Shown: piece by piece, positions 40,705-63,989 of the stretch | Layout: the number at the start of each line of letters is the position of its first letter | How positions within the stretch are numbered: the stretch's first letter is position 1 | Assembly: GCA_007833815.1 (NCBI GenBank) | Contig: CP033464.1 | Span: 5,129,501 to 5,193,500, forward strand | Direction: 5' to 3' | DNA: 64,000 nt | Source of the DNA: Brevibacillus laterosporus | GTDB lineage: Bacteria; Bacillota; Bacilli; Brevibacillales; Brevibacillaceae | Notes under the pieces: generated by a model | What the model was told of the DNA's origin: nothing | What the model saw: only the letters and a program-made list of their open reading frames with translations | The model's database searches: none | Program-made: the position numbers and the translations under genes

Positions 40705-42003
40705 ATGAATTTAGCTATTAAAAACTTGCCTACAGCAAGCAAAGTCCTCGAAATAAATCAATTTATCACTGGGTACTGGGAAAACGATATTTGGGATGCA
40801 GATGACTCGATTTTTAACGATTTTAGAAAAGTAAGTTCTGAAAAATCTCATCGTAAGATGAACTTTACTTTCTTCTCACCCAGCTTAAAAAATGAGGTTA
40901 AGTTCTTCATTATCAATCGTATCCAGAACGATGATCTACAATTGTACTCGGCAGTCCATAACTATTGTAGGTGCTTTAAGCAACTCGCCATATTTTTAAA
41001 TAAATTCTACCCTGATATAAACAGTTTTGTTGAATTAGACATCGATAAAGTACTGATGCAATTTCGTTCATATTTAAGCGAAAATGGCTTTAGTATACGC
41101 ATTCATGGCAGAAAAAAACTTTCCAATTATGAAAATTTGTTGAATCGTTTGTTCTTGTTCTATCAAAAGTACTATGACACGAGAAGTGAATTTGAAAAAG
41201 ATATCTGGGATGTAAGGAACATTCCTGGTGCAAAGTTTGCTGACTACGTATCAAACCAAACTTTAAATTTCAAGCATATTTCAGATCCATTTCTAAATTT
41301 AGCAAAAAGATACTTAAAGTTTCGAATAAGCTATCTATCATTTGGCCAATGTGCTCTTGACCTAAGAGTGATGAATCTGTTCATGACCTTTATCCATAAG
41401 AGATATCCTCTATGGAGCGATTTAAAAGCCCTTAATCGTAGAGATATGGAAGATTATCTTGTTTGGCATAACCAAGTATTACACGACAAAATCCCCTCCA
41501 AAAGATACTATCTAATCACATTACATGTGTTTTTGGAAAATATAGAGAAACTACAATTTGATGAAGCACCTGATTTACCCGTGAGTGTATTATTGTTCAA
41601 AGAAGATTTTCCTCGCAAAGTAACAAAAACCGAAAATGATATTAAATATATCCCTGAAGGAGTCCTTCAACAAATTGAGGAACGATTGGAATATTTAACT
41701 CCCGCAAGATTTATTCCAGTCGTAATATTGTTGCGTGCTACTGGTTGGAGAATATCAGATATTCTTAATCTGCGCTACGATAGCTGCTTAGAGCGTTCTT
41801 CTCAAGGATGGTACTTATGTGGTGATATTAAAAAGACACAAGTGTTGAACCATCGTGTTCCTATAACCGATGAGGTCGCACTGATTGTTCAAACCCTATT
41901 AGAAACCATAAAGGTACAGAGTACCCAGAGTAACAATCCCAAAAAGTATTTATTTGTTCAACTTGAAACGCCTGCAGTATGGCTGCTTCCGCCTGAACCT
42001 TGA
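40705..42003 (+). pseudogene. tnpB: Truncated Tn554-type tyrosine recombinase TnpB
   Basis: This frame starts one base after TnpA and shows the TnpB N-terminal and core regions, including the first catalytic Arg in LLRATGWRISDILNLRYDS. It ends at about codon 420, where the sequence runs into the IS231-like transposase remnant near 41960 (the last ~15 codons are foreign). The C-terminal His-x-x-Arg and Tyr of the active site are missing (usual length about 620-650 aa), so it is inactive. Confidence 0.85.
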
Positions 42004-43397: not shown

Positions 43398-43520
43398 TTA
43401 ACCACCTACTCCATGTTCGTATTGAATCACTCTATCTTCTACTTTTGCCACTTCTACATCTGCCGCTTGACTAAACACTCCAAAGGCCATTACTAGCGAT
43501 AGAAAAAATACCTTCATCAT
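43398..43520 (-). CDS. Exported signalling pro-peptide 1 (Alo/Phr-like), 40 aa
   Basis: This small gene starts inside the end of the HTH-TPR regulator gene (50-base overlap, different frame) after a strong GGAGGAGGTGAGAA site. It encodes an N-terminal signal peptide (MMKVFFLSLVMAFGVFSQA), a short acidic linker and a C-terminus ending QYEHGVGG. This is the layout of pro-peptides of RRNPP systems, which are exported, trimmed and re-imported by an oligopeptide permease. The mature signal is probably the last 5-8 residues. The C-terminal HGxGG resembles SHGRGG, the Alo peptide of Paenibacillus as I remember it. Confidence 0.8.
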   Translation of the reverse strand: MMKVFFLSLVMAFGVFSQAADVEVAKVEDRVIQYEHGVGG

Positions 43521-44883
43521 TTCTCACCTCCTCCATCAATTTTTTATACTCTCTTTTTTGTTGATCTGTTGCGTGATATCTATGTGCTTCAAAAAGTGTT
43601 ACACATCGTATGAATTTCTTTTGATTATTCATTACTATGGATAAATCTAGACATCTAAGGGTATCGATTATTCCATTCTCAAAACGATCATTTTGAAAAT
43701 GATAAATAGCCAAATCATATCGAAACCGAAGATGACGGTCTACATTAATTGGATCATGAGAGTCGTCAAAGGAACGGATTTCTTCTGAAAATCTCTCTAA
43801 TAGATGATCTATGAAAAAGCCATGCTTGTTAGCTGATGTCATGATTGTTACTAAGCCAGATAATATTTCTGTAGGATAGTCTTCAAGAAATGTAATGTAG
43901 TCAGCAAGAACACTTGTATTTCCCATGAGAATATCTAGCGTATACAAGTTTGCTGTAGCCCACAGCTTAAATTTATCAACCTCTGCTTGTCCAGATTCGT
44001 CAAGAAGCTCGAACCAGCTGAGATCAGCATAGCCAGAAACAAATTCTTTTGCTTCTTCATATTGCCCTTGTTTTTCCAATGCTACCGCTTTTAAAAGATA
44101 TCCCTGTCCATAATAAACAACTAAATGACGCTCTGTTTTAAGTGGTTGAAATACTCTATTATTCTGCTGCTTGCAACGTTCATTTCTATAAATCAAGGTA
44201 GCTAATTTCCTTAATTCATCACTGTACTTCTCCACTTCTTTCCACTTATGTAATGTAAAACATACATTAGCGAGTTGTAGTAGCGCATCCAATTGATGAC
44301 GCTCGGATAATCTTTTTCGATAAGATTCGAATCGTATAACAGCCTCCCAATTCTCCTCTATATCTGTTTCCTGTAATGCTCGAAACAAACGATAGTGACT
44401 CATAATAAATCGCTCTGAGAAGCTGTCTTTCTCGTTATCGATAACTAACTGATAAAAATAGGTTGATTCTTCATGTTTCCCTTTTTGAAATAACTGCTCA
44501 GCCACAAAAAAGAGAATTTCTAGGTTTTTGCGATTCTCCAATAAGATAGAGACAACGGGCGTAATGCAGTCATGTCTGCCGATTTCAACACATCGGATCA
44601 GATAAGGACATACTCTTCGCCTAGATACTCTTCCCTTTGGAAAACATTCATCTGCATATAGCTCGTACAACCAACCAGAAGGCTCTTCAAATACATTCGC
44701 AATAGCATCTAGTTGTGCAATCGTTAATGCCCTTGAAGGATTCCCATTCAAAAAACCACTCAAATGTCCATTATTGATATGAGTTAACTCACTTAGTTTA
44801 CTAAGCGTGTAGTCAAATAAATGGAGGCGATTTTCAATTTCAGATTGTATGGATCGCACCATAACATGATTACTAGCAACCAT
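43471..44883 (-). CDS. HTH-TPR peptide-sensing regulator 1 (RRNPP/Alo-like), 470 aa
   Basis: Residues about 20-80 form a variant HTH (YTLSKLSELTHINNGHLSGF), followed by roughly 380 residues of helix-turn-helix TPR repeats, for example in the ESTYFYQLVIDNEKDSFSE and LVVYYGQGYLLKAVALEKQG units. This architecture is that of RRNPP receptors, which bind a short peptide and change DNA binding. The start at 44883 has AAAAGGAGTGATTAC. The peptide gene overlaps its 3' end. It is about 70% identical by eye to the regulator at 62577-63989, which has the same length. Confidence 0.8.
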   Translation of the reverse strand: MVASNHVMVRSIQSEIENRLHLFDYTLSKLSELTHINNGHLSGFLNGNPSRALTIAQLDAIANVFEEPSGWLYELYADECFPKGRVSRRRVCPYLIRCVEIGRHDCITPVVSILLENRKNLEILFFVAEQLFQKGKHEESTYFYQLVIDNEKDSFSERFIMSHYRLFRALQETDIEENWEAVIRFESYRKRLSERHQLDALLQLANVCFTLHKWKEVEKYSDELRKLATLIYRNERCKQQNNRVFQPLKTERHLVVYYGQGYLLKAVALEKQGQYEEAKEFVSGYADLSWFELLDESGQAEVDKFKLWATANLYTLDILMGNTSVLADYITFLEDYPTEILSGLVTIMTSANKHGFFIDHLLERFSEEIRSFDDSHDPINVDRHLRFRYDLAIYHFQNDRFENGIIDTLRCLDLSIVMNNQKKFIRCVTLFEAHRYHATDQQKREYKKLMEEVRNDEGIFSIASNGLWSV

Positions 44884-45045
44884 GTAATCACTCCTTTTAG
44901 CCAACATTTCTTCTCATCCCGTACATATCTTTATGTGAACGGACTATTCGGACTTCGAATAACTGAGCAACGGCTGTTTTTTCCAACTAGTATTCCGTAC
45001 AGTCTATTCTTTTGACCGATCGTCCCTGTGTTTATTCCTTTTTTT

Positions 45046-46850: not shown

Positions 46851-46898
46851 TGTAGCACCTCTCATTCCAATTTTTAGGAACCTATAGCTCTATCATAA

Positions 46899-46913
46899 TA
46901 ACGGAAGACGTTA
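46899..46913. promoter_or_regulatory. Palindrome TAACG-N5-CGTTA between divergent XRE genes
   Basis: The perfect 5-bp arms lie in the 160-bp divergent promoter. The same element with a different spacer occurs in the decayed copy at 57465-57479, and a related TAACGTAAC at about 61066. It is a candidate operator for these XRE proteins. Confidence 0.5.
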
Positions 46914-47010
46914 CTGTCAATGCTGTTTTTTCGTCACACTCTCAATTTTCGTTAGTAAACTACCTAAATGCGTTAGTTACTGGTATTATTTTGAAAGAGA
47001 GGTGACGAGA

Positions 47011-47376
47011 ATGTCTTTGATCGGACTACGAATCAAAGCTCTGCGTATAAAGAAAAAATGGACGCAACAAGATTTGGCTGCTCGTGTAAACGTCTCATCA
47101 CAAGTAATTTCTAACTGGGAGAGAGCCTACACGAACCCCAATCATGATGATATTTCGCGTCTATCAGAGGCGTTAGAAGTTTCCGCAGATGCCATACTTT
47201 TTGACAACAAGCGAGCTAATTTCGTTAAAGAAGCTACTAACTCCTATTCTGATTTGGAAGCATTATTTTTCTCCGAACTAGAACAGTTATCAGAGGAAGA
47301 CAAATTAAAAGCCCTTGAACATGTACGTTTCCTGCGCCATCTGGCAGAACAAGAGCAGCAGGGGCACGACAAGTAG
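47011..47376 (+). CDS. XRE-family repressor, paralogue A, 121 aa
   Basis: The HTH (GLRIKALRIKKKWTQQDLAA, SSQVISNWERAYTNP) occupies residues 3-62, and the acidic C-terminus ends in a SEEDKLKALEHVRFLRHL helix that could mediate dimerisation (SinR/ImmR type). It is about 80% identical to paralogue B at 61179-61544 and to a decayed fragment at 57635. The ATG at 47011 follows AAGAGAGGTGACGAGA; a GTG at 47002 is less likely. A terminator hairpin follows directly. Confidence 0.85.
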   Translation: MSLIGLRIKALRIKKKWTQQDLAARVNVSSQVISNWERAYTNPNHDDISRLSEALEVSADAILFDNKRANFVKEATNSYSDLEALFFSELEQLSEEDKLKALEHVRFLRHLAEQEQQGHDK

Positions 47377-47402
47377 GCCCGCATGTTACATGCGGGCTTT
47401 TT
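47375..47402 (+). terminator. Intrinsic terminator after XRE paralogue A
   Basis: GCCCGCATG and CATGCGGGC with a 3-base loop are followed by TTTTT. The same hairpin, slightly diverged, follows paralogue B. Confidence 0.85.
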
Positions 47403-48362: not shown

Positions 48363-48690
48363 TTACATTAAAATATATCCACCTTCAATATGAAGAGTGG
48401 TTCCAGTAACAAAATCATTATGAATCAGATACATTACGCCCTTTGCTACATCTACTGGTTGTCCTATGCGTTTTACTGGGAGCTTATTTGCTAGATTGGC
48501 ATAAAAGCTATTGCGCGCTTCTTCCGGCATTTTACTGCGTGATGGCGTATCAATAATGCCTGGAGAGATCATATTTACTCGGAATAACAATCAAGTGATC
48601 AAGCGTACCTACTTGTTCGAAATAAGATTGAACCTGCTGTTCTTGCGTCGTATCTAGTATATAAGCTGTTACATTTCAGAAAGTTTTTTT
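48363..48690 (-). pseudogene. Short-chain dehydrogenase remnant
   Basis: The C-terminal part of an SDR is readable (FRVNMISPGIIDTPSRSKMP, DVAKGVMYLI, TLHIEGGYILM). Upstream, in a different frame, lies an N-terminal fragment with QVQSYFEQVGTLDHLIV. The NAG and YxxxK catalytic regions between them are gone, so an internal deletion destroyed the gene. Confidence 0.75.
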
Positions 48691-48916
48691 GATAGCAAGG
48701 AAGAAGAACGCAGAAATTTTTTGCTAGATTCCTTCACGTAACAAAAAAAGACCCACCGGTCCTTTTTCCTTGAAAAGCATTTAACGATCCTGTGCAGTTT
48801 TTTAAAGGAAAAAACCTAGAAGAAGCATTCAGTCATTTGCATCGAGTGCAGGAATTTCTCAGACTGAAACCGTTGAAGAGCTTCGCTTGTTATGATGTAG
48901 TCAAAAATCCAGGGAG
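48691..48916. other. Debris between the SDR remnant and the LAP operon
   Basis: A short hairpin GACC-CACC-GGTC with T/A tracts lies at about 48739-48765 and may terminate the LAP transcript or an old gene. The plus strand at 48787-48905 has a 40-codon open fragment (reads FFKGKNLEEAFSHLHRVQEF) without a start; it looks like a piece of an unknown gene. I see nothing else. Confidence 0.4.
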
Positions 48917-50020
48917 TCAGCCATTAACCAGTCTTCTATAGAATAAAATCATGACATACATCATTAGAAAAAAATAAGCAACACTCAATACCGTGTACAA
49001 ACTATACTGTATCCTTTTTTCTTTAGGTAAATAAACCAAGTAATTTGGCAACGGTCGAAACGTGACCTTACAAAGAAAATAATGAAGTGCCCTTCTACGC
49101 ATATTTAGTTCTCCCATTAAGGCTTCAATCGTATGAAATCCATCACTGGGTAACAAAGGATTCAAGTTCAATAAAAAAATAGCAAATTGAATTTTATATA
49201 CGATTTGGAATTGATTTGCCCACCACATGTTACCCCAAAGGCAAATGGATACGGATATCGCTACTCCTATCACATCAAATAGGGGCCCCGCTAATGCTAC
49301 TGCTGCCCGTTCATATTTACTGCGTAAACGGTAGGCATCTGTTGTATCTACATAGGCTATAGGAAGAATATAATATAGTAGTCCTATCCCTGCTTGACGA
49401 ATGTTAATTCCAAACCTTTGTAAAATGGTGGCGTGAGTCAATTCATGTAAAATTAAGTGCAGAACAGTAGCAGCAATAATAACCACCCATGATAAAGGTT
49501 CATTAGTTATTGGTAATCTATTACTAGAAAAAAACAGCGCAATCATACAGGTAGCTAGTAAAAAAATACACGCTCCACTAATAAAAATTCCCCGTGTCGA
49601 AAACATCCCCAAGAGCTTGGAAAATGGATAGGTGATTACCTCAGTGGAAGAAAGTAAAGGTATTCGAAGCACAGGATGCCCTCTAAGATACCTGATGGAA
49701 CGTCCAATTCTATCTTGAGGAATTGGTTCTACGTTTAACATACTCGCTTGTCTCAATTGCGCTAGAAATTGATTAACCACTGGTCTAACCTCTTCACGTG
49801 GTTTTTGATAATCAGTAGCAAGTTGTTCAATAATCTCTTCAATGGTAAAAGAGTTGTTCAACCACTCCACTACTTTTATACCTAGGGAAGATATTCTGAC
49901 ATAATTTCCGATTATTGGATTATATAACATAGGCTGATCATTGATCCCGTAAATAAGTTCCACACCATCTGCAAGTCTAGTTTCATGATTCGATAATTCT
50001 TGTAATCTCGCTACTTGCAT
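48917..50020 (-). CDS. M50 membrane metalloprotease with PqqD-like N-terminal domain, 367 aa
   Basis: Residues about 10-95 resemble a PqqD/RiPP-recognition element (NHETRLADGVELIYGINDQP, IVEQLATDYQKPREEVRPVV-like). The rest is a site-2-protease core: zinc motif HELTH (HExxH) in a transmembrane helix, and the third ligand region NLNPLLPSDGFH (NPxxPxDG-like). This would cut a membrane-proximal leader peptide after recruitment by the PqqD-like domain. It is the last gene of the LAP operon, immediately downstream of the two precursor genes. ATG follows GGGAGGTCTTACTCT. Confidence 0.8.
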   Translation of the reverse strand: MQVARLQELSNHETRLADGVELIYGINDQPMLYNPIIGNYVRISSLGIKVVEWLNNSFTIEEIIEQLATDYQKPREEVRPVVNQFLAQLRQASMLNVEPIPQDRIGRSIRYLRGHPVLRIPLLSSTEVITYPFSKLLGMFSTRGIFISGACIFLLATCMIALFFSSNRLPITNEPLSWVVIIAATVLHLILHELTHATILQRFGINIRQAGIGLLYYILPIAYVDTTDAYRLRSKYERAAVALAGPLFDVIGVAISVSICLWGNMWWANQFQIVYKIQFAIFLLNLNPLLPSDGFHTIEALMGELNMRRRALHYFLCKVTFRPLPNYLVYLPKEKRIQYSLYTVLSVAYFFLMMYVMILFYRRLVNG

Positions 50021-50138
50021 AGAGTAAGACCTCCCAATTACGAAGAGAATTCTAAATCGAAAATGCTTTCAGGATAGATAATGCATATCATACCTGAAAG
50101 CACCATTTCGAAAGCATTATACGGTTAGAACTAATGAA

Positions 50139-50297
50139 TTAATAAGAACCGTAAGTACCAAACGTACCTGCTGTACCGCCAAGAGTTCCTGCTGTACCCG
50201 CTGTACCTAAACAATCGTAGACAACAGCAGCATCCATTTGTTCAGAAAGCTCCTCTGCAAACAGATCTAATTCTAACATTTCCTCCATTTTTTCCAT
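50139..50297 (-). CDS. LAP precursor peptide A, 52 aa
   Basis: The precursor has an acidic leader (LDLFAEELSEQMDAAV) shared almost exactly with precursor B. Its core after YDC is built from Gly-Thr-Ala-Gly-Thr-like units. Cys29, Thr32, Thr35, Thr38, Thr42, Thr45, Thr48 and Ser51 fall at every third residue with one extra residue in the middle, each preceded by a small residue (Gly) or Asp. These are ideal for cyclisation to thiazole and (methyl)oxazole. The start ATG at 50297 (or 50300) follows GGGGGAGGAA. It probably arose from B by duplication. Confidence 0.85.
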   Translation of the reverse strand: MEKMEEMLELDLFAEELSEQMDAAVVYDCLGTAGTAGTLGGTAGTFGTYGSY

Positions 50298-50332
50298 CAT
50301 TTCCTCCCCCTTCTTGTTACAATTATGAAGAA

Positions 50333-50494
50333 TTAGTAACAACCATAAGTACCAAACGTACCTGCTGTACCGGTTGCAGTACCGAGAGTTCCTGCTGTAC
50401 CTAAACAGTCATAAACAACAGCAGCATCCATTTGTTCAGAAAGCTCCTCTGCAAACAGATCTAACTCTACATTTTTCTCCATACCTTTTTTCAT
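50333..50494 (-). CDS. LAP precursor peptide B, 53 aa
   Basis: Leader and core resemble precursor A. Potential heterocycle residues are Cys30, Thr33, Thr36, Thr39, Thr41, Thr43, Thr46, Thr49 and Cys52, with symmetrical spacing 3-3-3-2-2-3-3-3. The terminal Cys takes the position of Ser51 in A, a C/S exchange that suggests that this position is also cyclised. ATG at 50494 follows AGGAGGTGAAAAA. It lies about 200 bp after the SagB gene, so it may have its own promoter. Confidence 0.87.
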   Translation of the reverse strand: MKKGMEKNVELDLFAEELSEQMDAAVVYDCLGTAGTLGTATGTAGTFGTYGCY

Positions 50495-50574
50495 TTTTTC
50501 ACCTCCTAGATACAGGAACTCAATTCCCCCCAAGTTGTGAAATAATCGGCTCATAATGGTCAGATATATATTTA

Positions 50575-50643
50575 CCTCCAAGTAACAGAAAGTTCTTGGT
50601 TAGACTTCGCAAAACGATGCTAAATGTACCACTAACTTGGAGG
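50575..50643 (-). repeat. Long-range inverted repeat in the precursor leader
   Basis: CCTCCAAGT (50575-50583) and ACTTGGAGG (50635-50643) are exact complements, 51 bases apart, in the 200-bp gap upstream of precursor B. The ribosome-site-like GGAGG is part of each arm on one strand. It may be an attenuator or a regulator site controlling precursor expression relative to the enzymes. Confidence 0.45.
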
Positions 50644-50692
50644 GAACTTGTATAGTTTACATAAAGGTTGCATTCACGAAAGATTGAAGCCG

Positions 50693-51397
50693 TCACATCT
50701 CCAGTAGGTTGCCAAAGGAATATGCAACAAGTTGCATTTCTTTGTAGCCATCGATTCCAGCTGTTTCATAGAGATATTTTTGGACAATTCCCGCAAATAT
50801 GCATCCACCGTATCCCAAGCCTATGGAACTTAACCATGCTCTTTGGGCAGCCATTCCCCCTCGTACTAATAACTGACGATGTCCTGGGCTACCATGGCGA
50901 CAAATAGAAGCTCCCAATTTTCCAGTGATCACTAGAATCACCGGCGCTAATGCGAATTCTCGTTGCAAAACCAAATGCTCCATCTTGTAAAGGTCTAATT
51001 CACCTATCATGACCAAATCATGACGTATTGGACAATATCGATAGATGGCAGGGGTTACCTTCTCCATATTTCTGACGTATACAACAAATCCGATATCCAA
51101 TCCAGCCAAATGCTCTGATTCCCAATCTGTGGCATCACCTTGATACGCAGATTGAAGAATCGTTAAGACATCTTCTTTTTGAACAGATAGCTCTCCCCAA
51201 TGTCTTACAGCTTGTCTTTCTTCTATAGTCTGATAGACAGGAGCGCTTTCTTGTATGGAAGAAGGAGTTTTTTGAAACAAAAGATTATCTTCTTTTCCTA
51301 ATAAAGAGGAAGGAATCTCTACATATGGCTGTTTCGTCAACGTTGTCTTGGTGTCGTCCATTAAAGAAAGAACAATGTTGTATGGCTCAAAGTTCAT
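50693..51397 (-). CDS. SagB-type nitroreductase-family dehydrogenase, 234 aa
   Basis: This is an FMN-binding SagB-like domain: the RQAVRHWG-type N-terminal motif (EERQAVRHWGELSVQKEDVL), the ALAPVILVITG strand, and the C-terminal RAWLSSIGLGYGGCIFAG segment. In LAP pathways such enzymes oxidise azolines to azoles. The cluster has a second copy fused to an E1-like domain. The two may act as a heteromer or on different residues. ATG follows TAGGAGATG. Confidence 0.85.
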   Translation of the reverse strand: MNFEPYNIVLSLMDDTKTTLTKQPYVEIPSSLLGKEDNLLFQKTPSSIQESAPVYQTIEERQAVRHWGELSVQKEDVLTILQSAYQGDATDWESEHLAGLDIGFVVYVRNMEKVTPAIYRYCPIRHDLVMIGELDLYKMEHLVLQREFALAPVILVITGKLGASICRHGSPGHRQLLVRGGMAAQRAWLSSIGLGYGGCIFAGIVQKYLYETAGIDGYKEMQLVAYSFGNLLEM

Positions 51398-51408
51398 ATA
51401 TACATCTC

Positions 51409-53133
51409 CTAATAAACAGCTAAACCCCCAGAAACCGTCTCATTTTTTTCTGAAAGTCTTAATCTGTTTGCAAGTATATGATCATCCCAGCTCGTAATCA
51501 CTTCACCATATAAGTTCAATCCATTAGCAGTGGTATTCATTTGGGATATGGAAACCCCCGCATCCAAGCAAGAAATTCGATAACCAAAGAAATGATATTT
51601 CGCCGAAACCTTTCCAACATTAGATGCAGCCACTATTAACACAGAAGGTATATTCATGCTTTGTGTTTTAACAGAACTACGGATTACTATCGCAACTTGC
51701 TCCTCTGACAATGCTTCAATAAAAGATAAGGAATGATTAGCAGGTTGATAGAAATATATTCCTGATTCAAGCGATTCTACATGGTGAACCATTAGATAGA
51801 GTTCTGTTGAACCTAAATTACCACCAGTTGGAGACCAACGCTTTAGTTGCCCATTTGCTTCAAATTGTTTAATTCCAGCTCCGTACAGAACGAGTACAGC
51901 TAGTTGAGCAAGTGTAAGAGGTCGGTTAGGTAGTTGTAGCCTACGCTCATTTATCATACTGTGTAATACCTCTTTGTCTGGTTTTGGAAGGTCATCGTAC
52001 TGTGGCAATGTAACAACAGGAAAATTGAGCATCTTTTTAAAATGATGAGCAAGCTCCATATTACTCGCTTTATAATGCATTTGATGACTTTTTGGCGTAT
52101 TCAAATGAAAAGATGGGAAAGCTACAGAATTCTCATAGGCTGCTGCCAGCGGTACCTCTTTGCATTCATAATTGTCAATCGGACGACAACTGCAACCAGG
52201 AACAAAAGGAAGCCGGAGCTGTTTATTAGTCCAGTTTTGGAAATACAATTGATAAACATATTGTCCAGAGAAAAGGGGATTAATTCTGCTCAAACAGTAC
52301 ATTAGCTCCTGAACTGTGAAATACATCCAAAATTCTGCCATATAGTGATTAGGCTTATTCGTTTTAGCTGATTGGTTCTGCTTATGTACCTTTTCTATAC
52401 ACGAATAGCAAGGGGTTTCCCCCCGCTCCAAGTAAAATAGTTCTCCCTTCTCATCAGACACTTCGCTTAGTAGCCAACGAATATTATTTTCTGCACATAA
52501 TGTATCTAATTGTCGAAGTTTTTCCGTAACGATCATGCCATCGTTAAAGACGATTACCAAGGACTCATCATTAAAACAAATTTCATCCTCAAATGACTGA
52601 ACGTGAACATTCGTGATACCCACATGTTCCAGTTCCTTTTTAAAAACAATTCCCCATTCTTTACGAGCAAATACCTTCACCTTGGCTTGTAGCATTTTGT
52701 ACATTGCTTCTGCACCACTTCTGTGTACTCTAGTAGTATCAACATGTCTTTGAAAGTAGTTCAACGTTTCTTGCTCAAATTGGCTGGTTTCTATGTTGAC
52801 ATCTACCGATGCGTCCTCCAACAGTCCTCTTGCATACAACAAGACTATAGCCTGGTACAAAGTTTCTTGACTGTAAGCGGGAAGGGCTCTATGTAGTTCC
52901 TCTAATGTTTTGGTACCATCGAGTAATGGTAAAAGTAGAGGAAATAAGCTACTTGTTGATTTTCCACCTAGTATCTGCCGCTCTTCCGTTCCTTCAAAGA
53001 GAAACTTATGCTCTGGAAGTGGAATTACAGCTACTTCTTTCAGAAAGCGTGGGTGAATAGGAATGTGAAATTGCAAATCGTGTTGAATTGCATTTGCCAT
53101 ATACGTAGCACTGATCTTGTTAGCTGTGATCAT
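51409..53133 (-). CDS. Fusion of an E1-like cyclodehydratase partner (with RRE) and a SagB-type dehydrogenase, 574 aa
   Basis: Residues about 25-115 resemble the winged-helix RiPP recognition element of LAP C-proteins. Residues about 130-340 form a ThiF/E1-like partner domain with a Cys pair (CYSC, about 240) and PGCSC (about 300) that may bind zinc. Residues about 350-574 are a SagB-type flavin dehydrogenase (RRLQLPNRPLTLAQLAVLVL, GNLGSTELYLMVHH, VSKNEIT-like end). Such fusions combine leader binding, cyclodehydration and oxidation. The start at 53133 follows AAGGGGTCGATTGT. Confidence 0.82.
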   Translation of the reverse strand: MITANKISATYMANAIQHDLQFHIPIHPRFLKEVAVIPLPEHKFLFEGTEERQILGGKSTSSLFPLLLPLLDGTKTLEELHRALPAYSQETLYQAIVLLYARGLLEDASVDVNIETSQFEQETLNYFQRHVDTTRVHRSGAEAMYKMLQAKVKVFARKEWGIVFKKELEHVGITNVHVQSFEDEICFNDESLVIVFNDGMIVTEKLRQLDTLCAENNIRWLLSEVSDEKGELFYLERGETPCYSCIEKVHKQNQSAKTNKPNHYMAEFWMYFTVQELMYCLSRINPLFSGQYVYQLYFQNWTNKQLRLPFVPGCSCRPIDNYECKEVPLAAAYENSVAFPSFHLNTPKSHQMHYKASNMELAHHFKKMLNFPVVTLPQYDDLPKPDKEVLHSMINERRLQLPNRPLTLAQLAVLVLYGAGIKQFEANGQLKRWSPTGGNLGSTELYLMVHHVESLESGIYFYQPANHSLSFIEALSEEQVAIVIRSSVKTQSMNIPSVLIVAASNVGKVSAKYHFFGYRISCLDAGVSISQMNTTANGLNLYGEVITSWDDHILANRLRLSEKNETVSGGLAVY

Positions 53134-53145
53134 ACAATCGACCCC

Positions 53146-53787
53146 TTACACACGTAAGAATATTTCGTCATATTTCTCTAAAAGATAGTCATAGCTTCTC
53201 GTTGATTCTTCTCGTTGTAATCCGCATTGTGGACATCCGTGAAAACCAACCACTTTTCCCATTCGAGTAGTTCCCCGAACCACATTGCACTCGTAGACCG
53301 TACCAGCTTCCTTAACCAAATCCTCTTGCAAACGCTGATTCACATGTAAAAAGAGGTGAACAGCCATACCCACATGCACTCGCAAGAAGCCTTTGGGGCC
53401 TAGTTCAAAGTTTTGCTTGTATACATCTTGGGCTTGTTGCATGTATTTTCCAAACACAGAATGCTGGATTTGACGTTTTGAAAAACATGTGTAACACCCT
53501 TCTTCTTCAGGAATAACTACTGGTCCGATAATCAGACTCGTGTGATCCATGACAATCTGTACCCACGGCTTTTTCCACGCAGAACATAACTTGTCCATCA
53601 ATTGACATAGAGAAGAAACCGGTCTCCATGAAGCAACAATATGAATCCTAGCATGTGGCCAATTTGCTGGATAGAACACTCCGCTCTCATCCGATTGGGT
53701 AATAATAACTCCTTCCATTTTAGTTTGAAGCATGTTGGCAACCTCTATTCCAAAAGCTCCAACAGCTATCACATGAACGGTATTCAT
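53146..53787 (-). CDS. E1-like (ocin-ThiF-like) cyclodehydratase partner protein, 213 aa
   Basis: The protein has an N-terminal Rossmann-like segment (NTVHVIAVGAFGIEVANMLQ), and two CxxC pairs (CYTC near 100 and CPQC near 190) that can chelate a zinc ion as in E1-like LAP partner proteins. It would help YcaO bind the leader and cyclise Cys, Thr and Ser. The start at ATG 53787 lies after GAGGGGTGAGGG. It lies 3-15 bases after the YcaO gene. Confidence 0.8.
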   Translation of the reverse strand: MNTVHVIAVGAFGIEVANMLQTKMEGVIITQSDESGVFYPANWPHARIHIVASWRPVSSLCQLMDKLCSAWKKPWVQIVMDHTSLIIGPVVIPEEEGCYTCFSKRQIQHSVFGKYMQQAQDVYKQNFELGPKGFLRVHVGMAVHLFLHVNQRLQEDLVKEAGTVYECNVVRGTTRMGKVVGFHGCPQCGLQREESTRSYDYLLEKYDEIFLRV

Positions 53788-53802
53788 CTCTACCCTCACC
53801 CC

Positions 53803-55080
53803 TCAAGCAAATGGTTGTGGCCAAATGTTAATCTCTTCTTCCATTCGAATCGGATACCCATTTAATCTAGGTGCCTCATATAAACGAGGAGTACCTAAAA
53901 ATCTGGCGCGATAACTAAATGAAAGAGGCATTAATGTTGGAATAATTACACGGACAATATGCAAATTGGCTCGCCGTGCTTCATCGGTTGTCAAATCTAG
54001 AGCAAAAACCTCATGCCCCTTTTCTTCTAAGCGTTTTACTAGCTCCACAAGGTCCTTTTTGGGATTTCCCGTTTCTATGTTCTTCATTTCCGAAATTTTC
54101 TTATTTTTAGATGTTTGAAGCAGAAAATGATATGCTGAAGCTCTTTCTGGTGCTCCCATATACGTAGCACCGTCATAGACCTTGATAAAATCATCTAGAT
54201 TTTCAGGATGCTTCAAGCCGTTTTGCAGTGCAATGCGAGAGGATGCTGACTCCTTCATTAGCTTTGTAAAAGAATGGTAGGGGTTGAGTTCCGTGGAGCA
54301 CATAACCATAGTGGTAAGTTGAGGATTATGAGGAGCAAGCTGAATGCTATACAGTGTAGGTATTTCTAAATCGCTCGTTGCGTCATAAAAGATTTGCTGG
54401 ATGTGTTTATTTCGATCTAAATTTTCCAAATAGGGCTGTACCCATTGCGGGTAGCTATCTACCGAAATTTTCGGTAACTCCAATTGTTGTAACCATGTAA
54501 TTGCGATGGCGTCTCGTTCAATTACTTCACAAATTGCTCCAAGTAGGGCTTGCTCTAGTGTAGTATGGGCTGCACATCCTGTTGATATTGGTAACCATAT
54601 TTTTTCACCTTTACTCATTATTTCAAAGTTTAGATAGACCATAATCGCTGGTAACCAAACCGATCGCTTATGGGTTAACGAGATGCCTCGTACCCACCTG
54701 AGAGGAAGATCTTTATCAGGTTTAATAAGCGGGCAACGGGGATGCTGTAATTCTTTGTCAGAGCACCTTGGAATCATATCTAAATCCAATGCTTCCTCCC
54801 CAAGCTCCCTGCCAGTCGCCCAAATCATCTGTTTTTCATTGTACATACAGCTGGAATAGCGTTCTACCGTTTCCGCAATTGCTTTTCGTTTTGCCTCTTC
54901 CTCTAGAGTACTGTTACCTGCACCATCAATGGAAAAAGCTATGGTTGGAATGACATGAGAGAGATTCCCCATAATCCCGCTATAAACATGGTAAGATGGT
55001 TCTCCAGGTAGTGAGGGTATAGGAACAACATTTTGTAGTAAACCACCAATAGGCTGCACTAACTTATTTACAAAACCCAT
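53803..55080 (-). CDS. YcaO-type azoline-forming cyclodehydratase, 425 aa
   Basis: The YcaO fold shows the ATP-binding acidic segments EAKRKAIAETVERYSSCMYNE and GAICEVIERDAIAITWL, followed by the central catalytic region, and ends PYPIRMEEEINIWPQPFA-like, with a proline-rich C-terminus as in azoline-forming members. YcaO uses ATP to activate the peptide carbonyl and form thiazoline and oxazoline. Start follows GGAGGATAGCA, 2 bases from the ABC permease stop. Confidence 0.92.
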   Translation of the reverse strand: MGFVNKLVQPIGGLLQNVVPIPSLPGEPSYHVYSGIMGNLSHVIPTIAFSIDGAGNSTLEEEAKRKAIAETVERYSSCMYNEKQMIWATGRELGEEALDLDMIPRCSDKELQHPRCPLIKPDKDLPLRWVRGISLTHKRSVWLPAIMVYLNFEIMSKGEKIWLPISTGCAAHTTLEQALLGAICEVIERDAIAITWLQQLELPKISVDSYPQWVQPYLENLDRNKHIQQIFYDATSDLEIPTLYSIQLAPHNPQLTTMVMCSTELNPYHSFTKLMKESASSRIALQNGLKHPENLDDFIKVYDGATYMGAPERASAYHFLLQTSKNKKISEMKNIETGNPKKDLVELVKRLEEKGHEVFALDLTTDEARRANLHIVRVIIPTLMPLSFSYRARFLGTPRLYEAPRLNGYPIRMEEEINIWPQPFA

Positions 55081-55082
55081 TG

Positions 55083-56234
55083 CTATCCTCCTATTCTAAA
55101 AAAATGATGTTTTTTTCTCCTTTTATCCTTGCGAAGCTCCCCTCTTTTCTCAGAAAGGTCATCCCATTTAAAGGTATACAGAGAAATGAATATGAATAAC
55201 ATAGACGTCACAGTCATTACTAGATAGTCAATTAACAGAGGAGCAACAGCTTCAGCACCGGAATCAATAAAGTGGCGCAAGCTATCCCCAAAATAGGTTA
55301 ATGGAATAAATCTAGCCAATGAGCTGATGAAAGACGGCATCCATTCTAGTGGGTAAAACAATCCACAGACAATCATCAATGGTCCCATCATCAAGCCAAT
55401 CACACCATTAACAGCTTCTTGAGAACGCAAAATTCCCCCAAGCATATATCCTAATGAAAAAAACATCAGTAATCCAAAAGCAGAAGCCATAATAATCCCT
55501 ACTATAGCATTTGATGTGAAAATTCCCATTTGCAGACCATAGATGGTCATGATCGACAATTGAACCATTGCTATCCCTGCTCTAACCAAAATCTGTGAGG
55601 CAATGAGACTAAGTCTATGAATTGGTGTTAGAGCAAACAGCCTCAGGTTTCCTCTTTGTCTCATTTGAATGAGTGGAACGGCTGTACCCGTAAGACTTAA
55701 TGAAAGAAAAGCCAAAATCAAAACAGAAGGAAACGTAAATTGTAACACGTTAAATTTTTTCGTATCTCCAACTGAGGTAGCAACAAGGTTTAGCTCACCA
55801 GGCTTGCGTAGCATCTCGGATAAAACACTCTTAAAAATGAGTAACATATCTTCCTGTTTTGAATCGTATAGCAGTTGAATAGATGTTTGTTGATCTAATG
55901 TCGGTGGCAATAAAATGGCAACATCCAATCTTTTTTCTTTAAATTTTCCTTTTACCTCATCCTCTTTCATCTCTGCTATACGAAACTTGCGTTCTTGTTC
56001 CAACTGTTTCTTTAAATCATGTACTGTTTTGTCACTGTTAACATCCATGACAATTCCAACCCTTACCTGTGTAGGTTGAGATTGATGAGAAATAAAAGCA
56101 AACAATCCAATAAACATAAATGGAAAAATTAACACAAAGAAAAAGGTGGATTTATCTCTAACCAATTCACGGTAATTCATAAGAGTTAGCTGTACGAACG
56201 TGTTCCATATCACCTTTCCATTTTGTTTGTTCAT
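55083..56234 (-). CDS. ABC-2 type export permease of the LAP cluster, 383 aa
   Basis: Six transmembrane segments, with a long extracytoplasmic domain between the first and second (residues about 45-175), fit ABC-2 drug/peptide exporters. The cytosolic loop MRQRGNLRLFALTPIHRL is typical of this class. It works with the ATPase encoded just upstream (4-base ATGA overlap) and very likely exports and confers immunity to the mature azole peptide. The permease ends with a basic tail (KDKRRKKHHFF). Confidence 0.87.
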   Translation of the reverse strand: MNKQNGKVIWNTFVQLTLMNYRELVRDKSTFFFVLIFPFMFIGLFAFISHQSQPTQVRVGIVMDVNSDKTVHDLKKQLEQERKFRIAEMKEDEVKGKFKEKRLDVAILLPPTLDQQTSIQLLYDSKQEDMLLIFKSVLSEMLRKPGELNLVATSVGDTKKFNVLQFTFPSVLILAFLSLSLTGTAVPLIQMRQRGNLRLFALTPIHRLSLIASQILVRAGIAMVQLSIMTIYGLQMGIFTSNAIVGIIMASAFGLLMFFSLGYMLGGILRSQEAVNGVIGLMMGPLMIVCGLFYPLEWMPSFISSLARFIPLTYFGDSLRHFIDSGAEAVAPLLIDYLVMTVTSMLFIFISLYTFKWDDLSEKRGELRKDKRRKKHHFFRIGG

Positions 56235-57175
56235 ACCTCTACTCCTTTAAGAGATTTACCTGTCAGTGCTAAAAAAACGTCCTCTAAGTTTCCACGCCGT
56301 ATCAATAGATTGCTCCAGTTATGGAGATTAAGTTGACCATTACACAGTCTTTTCACCGTTACATCGGTTTGCGTGGAAACGACAGTTACCCTTTTCTTAT
56401 TTAATACGACTTCTTGAGATGCTTGTTCAATCTCAGCAAATGACTGAAGCAGGCTTATGTCACAACTCTCTTCCGTGTCAAATAGAATGATCTTTTTCGG
56501 ACAATATACATCTATTAATTCGTCAGGGGTACCTAATGCGATCATTTTTCCTTGGTTCATGATTGCCACCCGATCACACAATGTTTCTGCTTCTTCCATC
56601 GAATGAGTGGTTAATATGACCGTCCGCCCTTTTTTTCGGTATGCCAGAATCGCTTCCCATAAATGACGCCTTGCTTTTGGATCTAGTGAACTGCTTGGCT
56701 CATCCAAAAATAAGATCTTCGGATCGGAAATCAAGGCTACCGCAACCAAAAGTCTTTGCTTTTGTCCGCCTGACAATTTTTTGACTAAGGTATCTGCCTT
56801 ATCTTCAAGACCGATCTGTGAAATCATATCCTTTGGAGCAAGTGAATTGGCATAGAAACTAGAGAAAAGCGTAAGTGTTTCCATTACCGTTACATTAGGC
56901 AATAGATTCGCTTCTTGAGGTTGAACACCTATCATTTTTTTTATCGAAGTACGGTCCTTTTGAGCGTCCCACTCGAATATTTGAATATGACCACTGGTAG
57001 GCTTTCTCAATCCAACTATGCACTCTATTGTTGTTGTTTTTCCAGCACCGTTCGGCCCCAGAATACCAAAGATTTCGCCTTTATCTATCTGTAAATTTAC
57101 GTTTTCAACAGAGGTGATATCCCCATACTTCTTTGTAAAAGTAGCTATTTGTATGGCATGCATGTGATTAGACAA
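56231..57175 (-). CDS. ABC transporter ATP-binding protein of the LAP cluster, 314 aa
   Basis: All ATPase motifs are present: GPNGAGKTTT, QPQEANLLPN Q-loop, LSGGQKQRL signature, ILFLDEPSSSLDP and TTHSMEEAE. The C-terminal ~90 residues are the usual DrrA/CcmA-type extension. It is the first gene of the LAP operon. The best start is TTG at 57175 after AGGAAGTGAT, although the ATG at 57163 is possible. It should power export and self-immunity. Confidence 0.9.
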   Translation of the reverse strand: MSNHMHAIQIATFTKKYGDITSVENVNLQIDKGEIFGILGPNGAGKTTTIECIVGLRKPTSGHIQIFEWDAQKDRTSIKKMIGVQPQEANLLPNVTVMETLTLFSSFYANSLAPKDMISQIGLEDKADTLVKKLSGGQKQRLLVAVALISDPKILFLDEPSSSLDPKARRHLWEAILAYRKKGRTVILTTHSMEEAETLCDRVAIMNQGKMIALGTPDELIDVYCPKKIILFDTEESCDISLLQSFAEIEQASQEVVLNKKRVTVVSTQTDVTVKRLCNGQLNLHNWSNLLIRRGNLEDVFLALTGKSLKGVEV

Positions 57176-57386
57176 ATAAATATCACTTCCTATTTTTGTT
57201 ATTTATTGTAATAATATTACATTTAATCATGTTAGACAAGTGCTTCTATTATTTTAATAACTTCTATTACCTATTTTACTATTTTTAAATTTTTATACTT
57301 CCTTAACGAATTGTAAAACGTAAACACAATGACGCTCTCCTTGTTATCTGGACACCACTATAGGTATTGTCTACAACTGAATTATT

Positions 57387-57629
57387 ACATTTATAACTTA
57401 ATCCGTTATTTTTCAATTAAAAAAATACCTATCTAGCTTTCAGGAAAAGATAGCTCTATCTTAATAACGTAAAACGTTACTGTCAATGCTATGTTTTCGT
57501 CACACACCCAATATGAGAGCATACATGAGGAAAAATAAAGCAAATACACTCTTAGTGTCCACGTTTATTAAGGGGCTCCTCGCTTAAGCCGTTATAGACT
57601 GGACTATACATTTATAACTTAATCCGTTA
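57387..57629. repeat. 22-bp direct repeat, two copies
   Basis: Identical 22-mers at 57387-57408 and 57608-57629 bracket the decayed XRE locus. They derive from the 3' end of the minus-strand XRE gene and suggest a local duplication or recombination event. Confidence 0.65.
57465..57479. promoter_or_regulatory. Copy of the TAACG-N5-CGTTA palindrome
   Basis: The element equals the one between the XRE genes at 46899-46913 in both arms, with a different spacer. It remains intact in the decayed locus. Confidence 0.5.
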
Positions 57630-57920
57630 ATAAACAAGAGTTGGCTACTCGTGTAAATGTTTCATCACAAGTGATTTCTAACTGGGAAAGAGCCTAGATG
57701 ATCTCTCCTCTATCAGAGTCTAGATGTCGTCATATGAGTAAATAAATGGAATATATAGCCACTAGCTAGGAGTAGTAAAAAGGTTCGTCCTAGATAGTTT
57801 GTTAATGCCATACGCCCATAAGATTTTAAATGAAGCAACTGCTCACTACGGGCAGCTGCTTTTCTTGTCATACCAACTATTCATATCTCAAAATAAGAGA
57901 CAAGCTACTTTTGCCATGAA

Positions 57921-60954: not shown

Positions 60955-61178
60955 TTTTCATCACCTAAAAGAATTATATCAGAACAATCTGGAGTTTATC
61001 TGTATAGAAAAAATTGGAATTTGAATGAGCTAGCTAAACAGAAAAGTATTTCCAAAGATGAATTACAATAACGTAACTCGTTTCTTCAAGTGTTATTTTT
61101 TGTAAAACTCTCAATTATCGTTAGTAAACTACCTAAATACGTTAGTTCTTGTTATTATTTTTGAAAGAGGTGACAAGA

Positions 61179-61544
61179 ATGCCAACGATTGGACTACGAA
61201 TCAAAGCTCTACGGAAACAGAAAAAATGGACGCAACAAGAGTTGGCTGCTCGTGTGAATGTATCATCACAAGTGATTTCTAACTGGGAAAGAGCCTACAC
61301 TAATCCTAATCATGATGATATTACCCGTCTAGCAGAGTCGCTAGAAGTATCCGCTGATTCTATTCTTTTTGGTAAACAGCGACCAGATTTAGTCAAAGAG
61401 GCAACCAGTCCCTATTCCGCTTTTGAAGCACTATTTTTATCCGAATTAGAAAAGCTCTCGGAAGAAGATAAGCAAAAAGCTCTGGAACATGTCCGTTTTC
61501 TCCGCTATCTAGGTGAGCAAGAACAGAAAAATCACGACGAGTAG
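61179..61544 (+). CDS. XRE-family repressor, paralogue B, 121 aa
   Basis: This is a close copy of paralogue A (47011-47376): the same HTH with QVISNWERAYTNPNHDD, and the same C-terminal KLSEEDKQKALEHVRF helix. The promoter DNA is also duplicated, including the CGTTAGTAAACTACC block about 60 bp before the start. The ATG at 61179 follows AAAGAGGTGACAAGA. It differs in several surface residues, so it may have a changed partner. Confidence 0.85.
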   Translation: MPTIGLRIKALRKQKKWTQQELAARVNVSSQVISNWERAYTNPNHDDITRLAESLEVSADSILFGKQRPDLVKEATSPYSAFEALFLSELEKLSEEDKQKALEHVRFLRYLGEQEQKNHDE

Positions 61545-61570
61545 GCTCGCATATTGGATGCGGGCTTTTT
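61542..61570 (+). terminator. Intrinsic terminator after XRE paralogue B
   Basis: GCTCGCAT and ATGCGGGC with a short loop are followed by TTTTTACTT, equivalent to the hairpin after paralogue A. Confidence 0.8.
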
Positions 61571-61649
61571 ACTTTGGTAGTAATGTTGTACCCCTCTTTG
61601 CTCAATCATGAAGTTTTTTACTCCCTTTTCCTCCAGAATTTTCTGATAT

Positions 61650-62503: not shown

Positions 62504-62626
62504 TTAGCCACCAATCCCATGATCGTATTGAATCACTCTGTCCTTTGCCATTGCCACTTCAAAATCCATCACCTGACTACACAACCCAAAGATCATTACC
62601 AGCGAAAGCAAAAAGACTTTCATCAT
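62504..62626 (-). CDS. Exported signalling pro-peptide 3 (Alo/Phr-like), 40 aa
   Basis: It has the same layout as peptide 1: start inside the regulator 3' end (50-base overlap), GGAGGAGGTAAGGA site, signal peptide MMKVFLLSLVMIFGLCSQ, linker and C-terminus QYDHGIGG. Against peptide 1 the presumptive signal changes only E to D and V to I, conservative exchanges that could set specificity or allow cross-talk. It is flanked by its own terminator. Confidence 0.8.
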   Translation of the reverse strand: MMKVFLLSLVMIFGLCSQVMDFEVAMAKDRVIQYDHGIGG

Positions 62627-63989
62627 TCCTTACCTCCTCCATTATTTTTTTATAATCCTGTTTCTGTTGCAGTGTTGCGTGGTATCTATGTGCTTCAAAA
62701 AGTGTTACGCATCGTATGAAATTCTTTTGATCATTCATAGCTGTAGATAAAGCTAGGCATCGTAGAATATCGACTATCCCATTATGAAAACGTTCATTTT
62801 GGAACTGATAAATAGCTAACTGATACCTAAACCGAAGATGGCGTTCTACATTAATAGTATCTTGGTATTGATCAAAGCAACGTATCTCTTCTGAAAATCT
62901 CTCTAATAGGTTGTCTATCGAAAAGTCATATTTATTGGCTGATTCTACAATGGTCACTAGACCAGCAAGAATCTCCTTTGGATGTTCATCAAGGAAAGCG
63001 ATATAATCTGGAAGAATATCTGTAAGTCCCAGTAGCAAATCGAACGTATATCTATTGGCTTGGGCCCATAATCGGAATTTCTGAACCTCTTTTTGTCCTA
63101 CATCATCAAGATTTTCAAACCATCCTAAATCAGCGTAACCAGCAGCATACTCGTTTGCCTCTCTATACAAGCCTTGCTTTTCCAATGATTCCGATTTCAA
63201 TAAATAGGCCTGTCCATAATAGACAACCAAATGGCGTTCCGTTTTGAGAGGTTCACCTTTTCTATTACTTTTTTGTCTATTTTGTTCATTATCGTATACC
63301 AAAGTAACCAATTCTCTTAACTCGTCTGCGTATTTCTCTACCTCTTTCCACTTATGCAAAGTAAAGCTCACATTTGCTAGCTGTAATAATGCATCCAATT
63401 GGTAATTCTCAGAGAGTCTTTTTCGAAAAGGTTCGAATCGAATAACAGCTTTACCATTTTCCTCTGCATTGGTTCCCAGTAGTGATCGAAATAAACGATA
63501 TTGACTCATTACAGCTCGTTCTGAGTGGCTATTTCTTTCATTATCAATCACCAATTGGTAAAAATAAGCTGATTCCTTCTGTTTTCCCTTATAAAATAGC
63601 TGTTCAGCTACAGCAAAAAGAACTTCGATGTTTTTAGGATCCTCTAACAACTGAGAGATTACCAACTGAATACAGTCATGTCTACCTATTTCGGCACACT
63701 GAACAAGATACGGTCTAACTCTTCTCTTAGATACTTTTCCTCTTTGAAAGCATTCCTCTACATATAAATCATACAGCCACCCAGTAGGCTCTCCAAATGC
63801 TCGTCCAATAGCATTTAATTGATGGACAGTTAATGCTCGGATAGGATTCCCCTTCAAGAATCCGCTCAAGTGCCCGGCATTGATATTAGTCAATTCACTG
63901 AGTTTACTTAAGGTGTAGTTATATGATTTGATGCGATATTCAATTTCCGACCGTATCGATCGCACCATCACATGATTACTTCCGACCAT
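62577..63989 (-). CDS. HTH-TPR peptide-sensing regulator 3 (paralogue of regulator 1), 470 aa
   Basis: The architecture is the same as for regulator 1: atypical HTH (YTLSKLSELTNINAGHLSGF) in residues 20-80, then TPR-like helical repeats. Length is identical (470 aa), and conserved blocks such as DALLQLANVSFTLHKWKEVE and CVTLFEAHRYHAT recur. The ATG at 63989 follows GGAGTGTTTAT at the window edge. Its peptide gene overlaps the 3' end by 50 bases as in cassette 1. It marks the right flank of the island. Confidence 0.82.
   Translation of the reverse strand: MVGSNHVMVRSIRSEIEYRIKSYNYTLSKLSELTNINAGHLSGFLKGNPIRALTVHQLNAIGRAFGEPTGWLYDLYVEECFQRGKVSKRRVRPYLVQCAEIGRHDCIQLVISQLLEDPKNIEVLFAVAEQLFYKGKQKESAYFYQLVIDNERNSHSERAVMSQYRLFRSLLGTNAEENGKAVIRFEPFRKRLSENYQLDALLQLANVSFTLHKWKEVEKYADELRELVTLVYDNEQNRQKSNRKGEPLKTERHLVVYYGQAYLLKSESLEKQGLYREANEYAAGYADLGWFENLDDVGQKEVQKFRLWAQANRYTFDLLLGLTDILPDYIAFLDEHPKEILAGLVTIVESANKYDFSIDNLLERFSEEIRCFDQYQDTINVERHLRFRYQLAIYQFQNERFHNGIVDILRCLALSTAMNDQKNFIRCVTLFEAHRYHATLQQKQDYKKIMEEVRNDESLFAFAGNDLWVV

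Follow-up and report, generated by a model that had tools for sequence, protein, structure and literature searches.

A Brevibacillus laterosporus operon with berninamycin/sulfomycin-type azole enzymes and no adjacent LanB is predicted to make linear azole peptides

Introduction

What would a set of azole-forming enzymes known from thiopeptides make at a locus that encodes no dehydratase? The question is raised by a nine-gene operon in a 64,000-nucleotide stretch of Brevibacillus laterosporus (assembly GCA_007833815.1, contig CP033464.1, positions 5,129,501 to 5,193,500; hereafter the window), part of a 5.76 Mb genome. An earlier reading of the letters and open reading frames (ORFs) alone, referred to below as the sequence-only reading, had proposed that the operon makes a new type of linear azole peptide (LAP). 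We put the probability at roughly 0.8 that the four-protein azole synthetase known from berninamycin and sulfomycin has its homologues in this operon, without an adjacent LanB, and that the operon makes linear all-azole peptides, as predicted here. What is new is the absent dehydratase together with a Gly-Thr core; the four-enzyme layout was already known.

Results

ORF and family searches (NCBIfam and Pfam) showed nine intact open genes, all on the minus strand and running from 57175 to 48917, in the 5′ to 3′ order ABC ATPase, ABC-2 permease, YcaO, E1-like protein, fusion of a RiPP recognition element (RRE; RiPP, ribosomally synthesised and post-translationally modified peptide) and E1 part with a SagB dehydrogenase, SagB-like protein, precursors A and B, and PqqD-M50 protease. 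These nine frames with their matching family hits bear out the earlier claim of a complete azole-peptide operon for making, cutting and export. A YcaO with an E1-like/RRE partner, as expected of a LAP system, is present (TIGR03604 and TIGR03882 above cut-off, with an RRE match in the fusion), and both precursors are short and combine a leader with a core that contains Ser, Thr or Cys. The features, in window coordinates, are the following:

56231..57175, minus strand: first gene, DrrA-like ABC exporter ATPase, 314 aa, TTG start (family match)
55083..56234, minus strand: ABC-2 permease, 383 aa (PF12698, 123 bits)
53803..55080, minus strand: discrete YcaO cyclodehydratase, 425 aa, SulD/GenG2 position, C-terminus WPQPFA (TIGR03604, 312 bits, cut-off 219; PF02624, 216 bits)
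53146..53799, minus strand: short E1-like partner, 217 aa, SulE/GenG1 position (TIGR03882, 42 bits, cut-off 37)
51409..53133, minus strand: RRE/E1-SagB fusion dehydrogenase, 574 aa, SulF/GenE2 position (TIGR03605, 106 bits, cut-off 78, for the SagB domain)
52792..52977, minus strand: predicted leader-binding RRE in the fusion, about residues 53-114 (profile match)
51595..51600, minus strand: Lys512-Tyr513 pair in the SagB domain of the fusion (alignment of 53 rows)
50693..51397, minus strand: second SagB-like protein, 234 aa, SulG/GenE1 position (PF00881 above cut-off; TIGR03605, 50 bits, below cut-off)
50333..50494, minus strand: precursor A, 53 aa (NF033482, 39 bits; AGGAGGTG upstream of the ATG)
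50336..50407, minus strand: precursor A core from Cys30, CLGTAGTLGTATGTAGTFGTYGCY, putative start (core analysis)
50139..50300, minus strand: precursor B, 53 aa (NF033482, 40 bits; GGGGGAGG upstream of the ATG)
50142..50213, minus strand: precursor B core from Cys30, CLGTAGTAGTLGGTAGTFGTYGSY, putative start (core analysis)
50063..50103, minus strand: mRNA hairpin in the gap between precursor B and the protease gene (stem ends taken from the dot-bracket)
48917..50020, minus strand: last gene, PqqD (RRE-like)-M50 intramembrane metalloprotease, 367 aa (PF05402 and PF02163 above cut-off)

The four azole enzymes have the berninamycin/sulfomycin-type layout. In geninthiocin B and berninamycin, a short E1-like protein, an E1-dehydrogenase fusion, a second dehydrogenase and a discrete YcaO occur together, with lengths in geninthiocin B of 212, 543, 234 and 448 aa (PMC6306032), compared with 217, 574, 234 and 425 aa in the window. 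SulD-SulG of sulfomycin, likened here by their description in the accessible part of PMC10634744, show the same four-enzyme layout, SulF holding RRE, E1 and dehydrogenase parts; unlike the window operon, sulfomycin has an additional second YcaO. The complexes SulBC, SulEFG and SulDEFG are described there as yielding thiazole, methyloxazole and oxazole, an assignment of ring to complex being absent from that part of the source. To compare sequences, we used the results of a search for geninthiocin-type loci in 246 genomes of the genus to which the genome of locus L047 belongs, from which 18 stretches were fetched, with one more from genome G019. Two loci, L075 and L076, were named geninthiocin-type for their BerA-like precursors (that of L076, the only one tested, matched NF033401 with 54 bits). 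All four window enzymes were homologous to their counterparts in these two loci, the comparison being made with L075/L076 and not with SulD-SulG themselves; identities to L075/L076 were 37/39% for the YcaO, 26/23% for the E1-like protein, 26/28% for the fusion and 27/28% for the second SagB. No match to the PqqD-M50 protease was found in L075 or L076. Given the same four enzymes in geninthiocin B/berninamycin (PMC6306032) and sulfomycin (PMC10634744), and gene-by-gene homology with L075/L076, the idea that the enzyme layout is new had to be abandoned; the narrower statement that it differs from named LAPs is right for goadsporin and heterocycloanthracin, the two compared. LanB-like dehydratases, a pyridine-forming enzyme and a Ser-rich core are further features of geninthiocin B, and none of these is present in the window operon.

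Like the product predicted here, goadsporin (PMC5303826) is a linear azole peptide, and its system shares with the window operon a leader, a cyclodehydratase, a dehydrogenase and an ABC protein. In goadsporin, however, GodD is the one cyclodehydratase and GodE the one dehydrogenase, LanB is split (GodF/GodG), the ABC protein bears a peptidase, and an acetyltransferase is also present. Heterocycloanthracin is made by a fused E1-YcaO cyclodehydratase with an ocin-ThiF protein, and the discrete 425-aa YcaO of the window rules out this type. A second thiazole/oxazole-modified microcin (TOMM) YcaO in the same genome (G000:C4:5355582-5356733, 740-aa frame) probably belongs to a heterocycloanthracin-type LAP cluster. 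Microcin B17 is a linear peptide with Gly-preceded azoles, like the product predicted here, but its McbBCD synthetase has one E1-like protein and one dehydrogenase, and its leader is removed by TldD/E. The dehydrazole class was also ruled out, its dehydratase being, in the accessible part of the literature, a LanM-type enzyme.

The nearest CHARACTERISED peptide to the window product is the spongiicolazolicin pair A and B, of 29 and 28 residues, from Streptomyces sp. CWH03 (accessible part of PMC8838263). In the record of this strain (S. pacificus CWH03), locus L051 encodes a YcaO, an E1-like protein, the fusion, a second SagB, a PqqD-M50 protease, a split LanB and four precursors, of which the one tested belongs to the NF033482 family, as in the window. 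Two of the precursors end in 29- and 28-residue stretches starting with GNC and GNV, equal to the reported product lengths, and the remaining YcaO genes found in the CWH03 genome are on contig C13, near a different Ser/Thr/Cys-rich precursor; L051 is therefore likely the spongiicolazolicin cluster. It differs from the window operon in its split LanB and its Ser-rich cores, and the ABC pair was not found in the fetched L051 stretch. The check for characterised relatives proposed in the sequence-only reading thus returned relatives in layout (the geninthiocin-type L075/L076 and L051 of the producer CWH03), while the absence of LanB and the Gly-Thr core remain new. Clusters on an Anoxybacillus amylolyticus plasmid (L023) and in Bacillus atrophaeus (L029) share the window's enzymes, protease, ABC genes and leader family but, unlike the window, have a split LanB and Ser-rich precursors (three and five, respectively); the window's enzymes and protease together with a split LanB were also present in other actinobacterial loci. 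L029 (12479-13440) and L040-L043, which contain LanB, each encode several precursors, and in many of these the core includes SCP.

No LanB was found within the operon or elsewhere in the window. The sole LanB match in the whole genome is full length (1066-aa frame, C4:2004293-2007271) and lies on the same contig about 3.2 Mb away, and the C-terminus of that LanB is also the genome's only match to PF14028, the profile used for pyridine synthases, which a very divergent synthase would escape. The earlier statement that there is no LanB-like dehydratase and that this is not a thiopeptide is therefore confirmed, a thiopeptide being ruled out by the lack of LanB and pyridine synthase in the cluster. 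Because the locus has no dehydratase, no dehydroalanine (Dha), no thiopeptide pyridine and no goadsporin-like Dha-azole pattern are expected; the features of goadsporin- and spongiicolazolicin-like Dha-azole peptides are lacking, there being no split LanB and only 2% Ser in the window cores.

Among 41 loci with a YcaO and a PqqD-M50 protease, 31 (L051 included) carry LanB and 10 do not. Three Paenibacillus loci (L026-L028) have the same nine-gene set with two precursors and no LanB, at 74-75% identity to the window for the YcaO, 61% for the fusion and 57% for the protease. Six Actinoplanes loci (L031, L033, L034, L036, L037 and L055) have the same enzymes and protease, again without LanB; the ABC pair was not detected in these six, one weak ATPase match in L036 apart. 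LanB is present in the Bacillota relatives L023, L029, L030 and L068. The survey is a lower bound, the alignment-based scan of genome contigs having given at least 80 pattern matches with at least 40 confirmed; a scan of genome contigs with a single protein gave 0 relatives, and a search of the phage collection gave no match. Soil homologues (P0004-P0035), at 34-46% identity, were closer to the window than Bacillus proteins were, and the fusion is 98% identical to a B. laterosporus protein. The six Actinoplanes clusters encode long Gly-Cys repeat cores and may make polythiazole peptides. On a Streptomyces plasmid, L067 (8971-16435) encodes a YcaO (annotated in two pieces), an E1-like protein, the fusion, a second SagB, a 43-aa peptide and a GNAT acetyltransferase, with no LanB found in the fetched stretch.

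In a tree of the YcaO and fusion (30 rows), the window and Paenibacillus grouped together (100/100) and were nested in a Bacillota group (100/99) with four further members, each carrying LanB; Actinoplanes stood apart. A single grouping of all eight LanB-less rows was rejected (p-AU 2.5e-5), and the tree requires two label changes; L075/L076 were left unlabelled, and L028, L042, L055, L059, L066, L067, L073, L077 and L086 were dropped as near-copies, long branches or incomplete. An earlier tree required four changes, having counted L075/L076 as LanB-less from the search although the paper gives them LanB, and having also held L067, L077 and L086, which are LanB-less in the fetched stretch and have no M50. 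The data support two separate LanB-less lineages, and as the root was not inferred, loss of LanB is only the simpler reading of the tree.

These distributions bear on two other explanations. The LanB elsewhere in the genome might dehydrate the peptide in trans, introducing Dha or dehydrobutyrine and giving a goadsporin- or thiopeptide-like product, and the three Paenibacillus genomes likewise hold LanBs elsewhere, all of them full length. We consider this improbable, since the B. laterosporus LanB is full length, and for that reason likely of the lanthipeptide kind, rather than split like the LanB of LanB-positive relatives; since the window cores are nearly devoid of Ser; and since two of three whole Actinoplanes genomes examined (G105 and G106) have the same enzymes and protease yet no PF14028 match at all (G107 has two elsewhere). 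Slightly less probable still is that the operon is the remnant of a decaying thiopeptide-type cluster, left without a product by the loss of essential genes. The LanB of the other Bacillota relatives and a truncated short-chain dehydrogenase/reductase (SDR) gene adjoining the operon would fit such decay, but the nine frames are intact with conserved motifs, three Paenibacillus genomes have the LanB-less set at 57-75% identity, and core composition changes in step with LanB, as described below.

The precursors themselves are consistent with a linear azole product. Both exceed the 25-bit cut-off of NF033482 ('thiocillin family RiPP') and share the leader ELDLFAEELSEQ; their starts are ATG 50494 (A) and ATG 50300 (B), each with a good ribosome-binding site, and these replaced the upstream TTG starts of the ORF list. 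In the 24-residue cores, Gly directly precedes 7 of 9 (A) and 7 of 8 (B) Ser/Thr/Cys residues, and the Gly-Thr pattern is above chance, being matched by only 18 (A) and 32 (B) of 200,000 shuffles. The description of the cores as Thr-rich with a period of three was thus partly right: there are two Thr-rich precursors with Gly-Thr beyond chance, but the three-residue period is interrupted once in each core. The same period is found in nostatin A, where a dehydro-residue, an azole and an unmodified residue make up each three-residue unit, a pattern described as very similar in spongiicolazolicins, goadsporin and phazolicin (accessible part of PMC11583998). The count of Gly-preceded sites predicts seven rings per precursor, formed from six Thr and one Cys (A) or Ser (B), with calculated full-length [M+H]+ values of 5417.4 (A) and 5464.3 (B), down from 5557.6 and 5604.5 for the unmodified precursors. 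The product is thus likely a linear peptide with, as judged from the precursors, seven Gly-derived rings, mostly methyloxazoles. A database search with precursor A returned four proteins, namely A, a copy of B lacking the initial Met, a form of A that differs at two positions, and the distant P0096, whose Gly-Thr core is similar to that of A. It is possible, if rather doubtful, that cyclisation is partial, leaving some Gly-Thr sites open or as azolines in a sparsely modified peptide that is perhaps a signal rather than an antibiotic: carnazolamide is modified by a YcaO system at only 8 of 20 Ser/Thr/Cys residues (PMC10676384), and the lack of antibacterial activity of the spongiicolazolicins, considered below, points the same way. 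The operon nevertheless retains two dehydrogenase-like proteins, and the Gly-Thr spacing is conserved in the three Paenibacillus genomes and P0096, which argues for full ring formation.

We then compared core composition with the presence of LanB. A leader profile seeded from both kinds of locus gave precursors from 38 of the 41 M50-containing loci, and their last 26 residues were scored; the profile missed some known precursors (one of four was found in L051), and none was obtained from L049 and L053 (LanB-positive) or L055 (LanB-less), which are outside the count. The Ser share of the core was 0-10% in the 9 LanB-less loci vs 18-42% in the 29 LanB-positive loci, and the fraction of Ser/Thr/Cys preceded by Ser/Thr was 0-12% vs 27-60%, neither pair of ranges overlapping, while the fraction preceded by Gly was 43-100% vs 3-45%. 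A smaller count on 19 hand-picked loci showed the same trend. Because the loci are related and some are near-copies (e.g. L046/L069 and L048/L074), the independent contrasts number two. In both lineages, the loci that lack LanB also have cores with next to no Ser.

Structural and profile evidence was in agreement with the enzyme assignments. The E1/RRE part of the fusion gave weak family hits, backed by a profile search and a structure model: its RRE matched the N-terminal parts of LynD (4v1t) and PbtF (8t19), and the AlphaFold2 model (pLDDT 91, from 53 sequences) retrieved LynD, TruD and MccB together with the dehydrogenases ThcOx and McbC in Foldseek, the 6grh chain being read as McbC from its chain letter, the name given for 6gos. 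Lys512-Tyr513 of the fusion is invariant in all 53 aligned rows; such a Lys-Tyr pair has a catalytic role in other TOMM dehydrogenases. The model of the E1-like protein (pLDDT 83, 15 sequences) retrieved TruD, LynD, one chain of an McbBCD complex and MccB, and the protein has two CxxC pairs (residues 102-105 and 189-192). In phmmer searches the YcaO aligned with the YcaO domains of MusD and LynD and matched TruD. The second SagB-like protein, likely a dimer partner of the fusion, has the Lys-Tyr pair (residue 207) in the window and in L026, whereas it is lacking in the other five of six relatives examined.

The protease carries the motif HELTH at residues 192-196 and resembles the daptide HExxH protease NF041824 (95 bits) and epipeptide proteases, both below cut-off. 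Upstream of its gene, a 101-nucleotide stretch (50040-50140) folds with a z-score of -4.5, none of 200 shuffles being equally stable, and the hairpin at 50063-50103 is possibly an attenuator or a stabiliser; an attenuator there would favour expression of the precursors over the protease. A second hairpin candidate (48720-48850) had a z-score of -0.45, and scans of 48600-57800 found 22 promoters (26.8 expected from shuffles) and 2 terminators (5.5 expected).

The operon was likely acquired by this genome, to judge from operon-free sites in relatives and an SDR gene fragment. Among 100 genomes, the window's own included, a full-length fusion match elsewhere was found only in G019 (L068, LanB-positive), and the other five same-genus genomes gave weak partial matches only. 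Among four same-genus stretches compared, two show the operon-free site: L095 (G002) has 1.26 kb in place of the window's 48.57-57.92 kb, and L097 (G004) has 0.94 kb in place of 48.68-57.93 kb; L096 and L098 leave it unresolved. The SDR fragment at the operon edge (48363-48675), whose intact counterpart a related species retains (L095, 13674-14402), likely marks an insertion or rearrangement site. The operon is flanked by copies of an XRE-type regulator (46889-47402 and 61062-61576) and by a larger gene pair (43471-44907 and 62574-63989), the two members of each matching the same relative sequences; two neighbouring phage-integrase-like genes occupy 39745-42003, the second below the Pfam cut-off.

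In the literature searched, largely without subscription papers and in part through partial texts, no published account was recognised as this operon. The LAP precursors of B. laterosporus in the accessible parts of PMC6510442 and PMC12503217 are Cys-rich and of another kind; PMC9867215, as far as its accessible part goes, reports LAP clusters in 11 of 11 Brevibacillus isolates with precursors that are Cys-rich or enriched in Val-Ala or Ser. No mention of Brevibacillus or Paenibacillus occurs in the main text of PMC4603692. The accessible part of PMC5100339 counts one LAP cluster in its single B. laterosporus genome and four in B. atrophaeus with the type unstated, so such clusters may already have been counted.

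Discussion

Taken together, the data suggest how the operon may work. The RRE of the fusion would bind the shared leader. Azolines would form from Thr after Gly, and likewise from the C-terminal Cys or Ser, through the YcaO and the short E1-like partner; their oxidation to methyloxazoles, oxazole or thiazole would fall to the fusion acting with the second SagB-like protein. Leader binding and cleavage by the PqqD-M50 protease would come next, followed by export through the ABC pair. This product might serve, by analogy with related compounds, as a growth inhibitor or a signal to neighbouring bacteria, which is a guess.

Several points weigh against this reading. The product, with its putative cut site, its number of rings and their degree of oxidation, is predicted from sequence. 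The role of the second SagB-like protein is uncertain, since among the proteins examined only those of the window and L026 have the Lys-Tyr pair, and the full-length LanB at C4:2004293-2007271 could act in trans. The LanB of L075/L076 is taken from the published cluster and not from our searches. The Gly-preceded ranges of the two groups of loci touch, and the LanB-positive L068 encodes one precursor whose core is Gly-Thr-like, so the link between LanB and core is strong per locus without being absolute. Finally, the assays reviewed in the accessible part of PMC8838263 detected no antibacterial activity of the spongiicolazolicins.

We hold it at even odds that the berninamycin/spongiicolazolicin set gave rise, in Bacillota and again in Actinoplanes and so two or more times, to a distinct all-azole Gly-(Thr/Cys)-X LAP subfamily in which LanB is absent and Gly has mostly taken the place of the Ser that forms dehydroalanine in each three-residue unit. 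The matched changes of enzyme and peptide in two lineages suggest the loss of a single enzyme as a likely route to new peptide types, and they provide a testable rule, that the presence of LanB predicts the core. The berninamycin/sulfomycin synthetase was described from thiopeptides, whose clusters also have dehydratase and pyridine-forming enzymes, whereas here it stands alone with a repetitive Gly-Thr core, so that azole formation can be studied without competition from a dehydratase, and the window synthetase might serve to produce designed poly-methyloxazole peptides. An active product would represent a compact type of azole peptide from the genera Brevibacillus and Paenibacillus, and if the subfamily is real, it would be a natural case in which enzyme and substrate changed together to create peptide antibiotic scaffolds.

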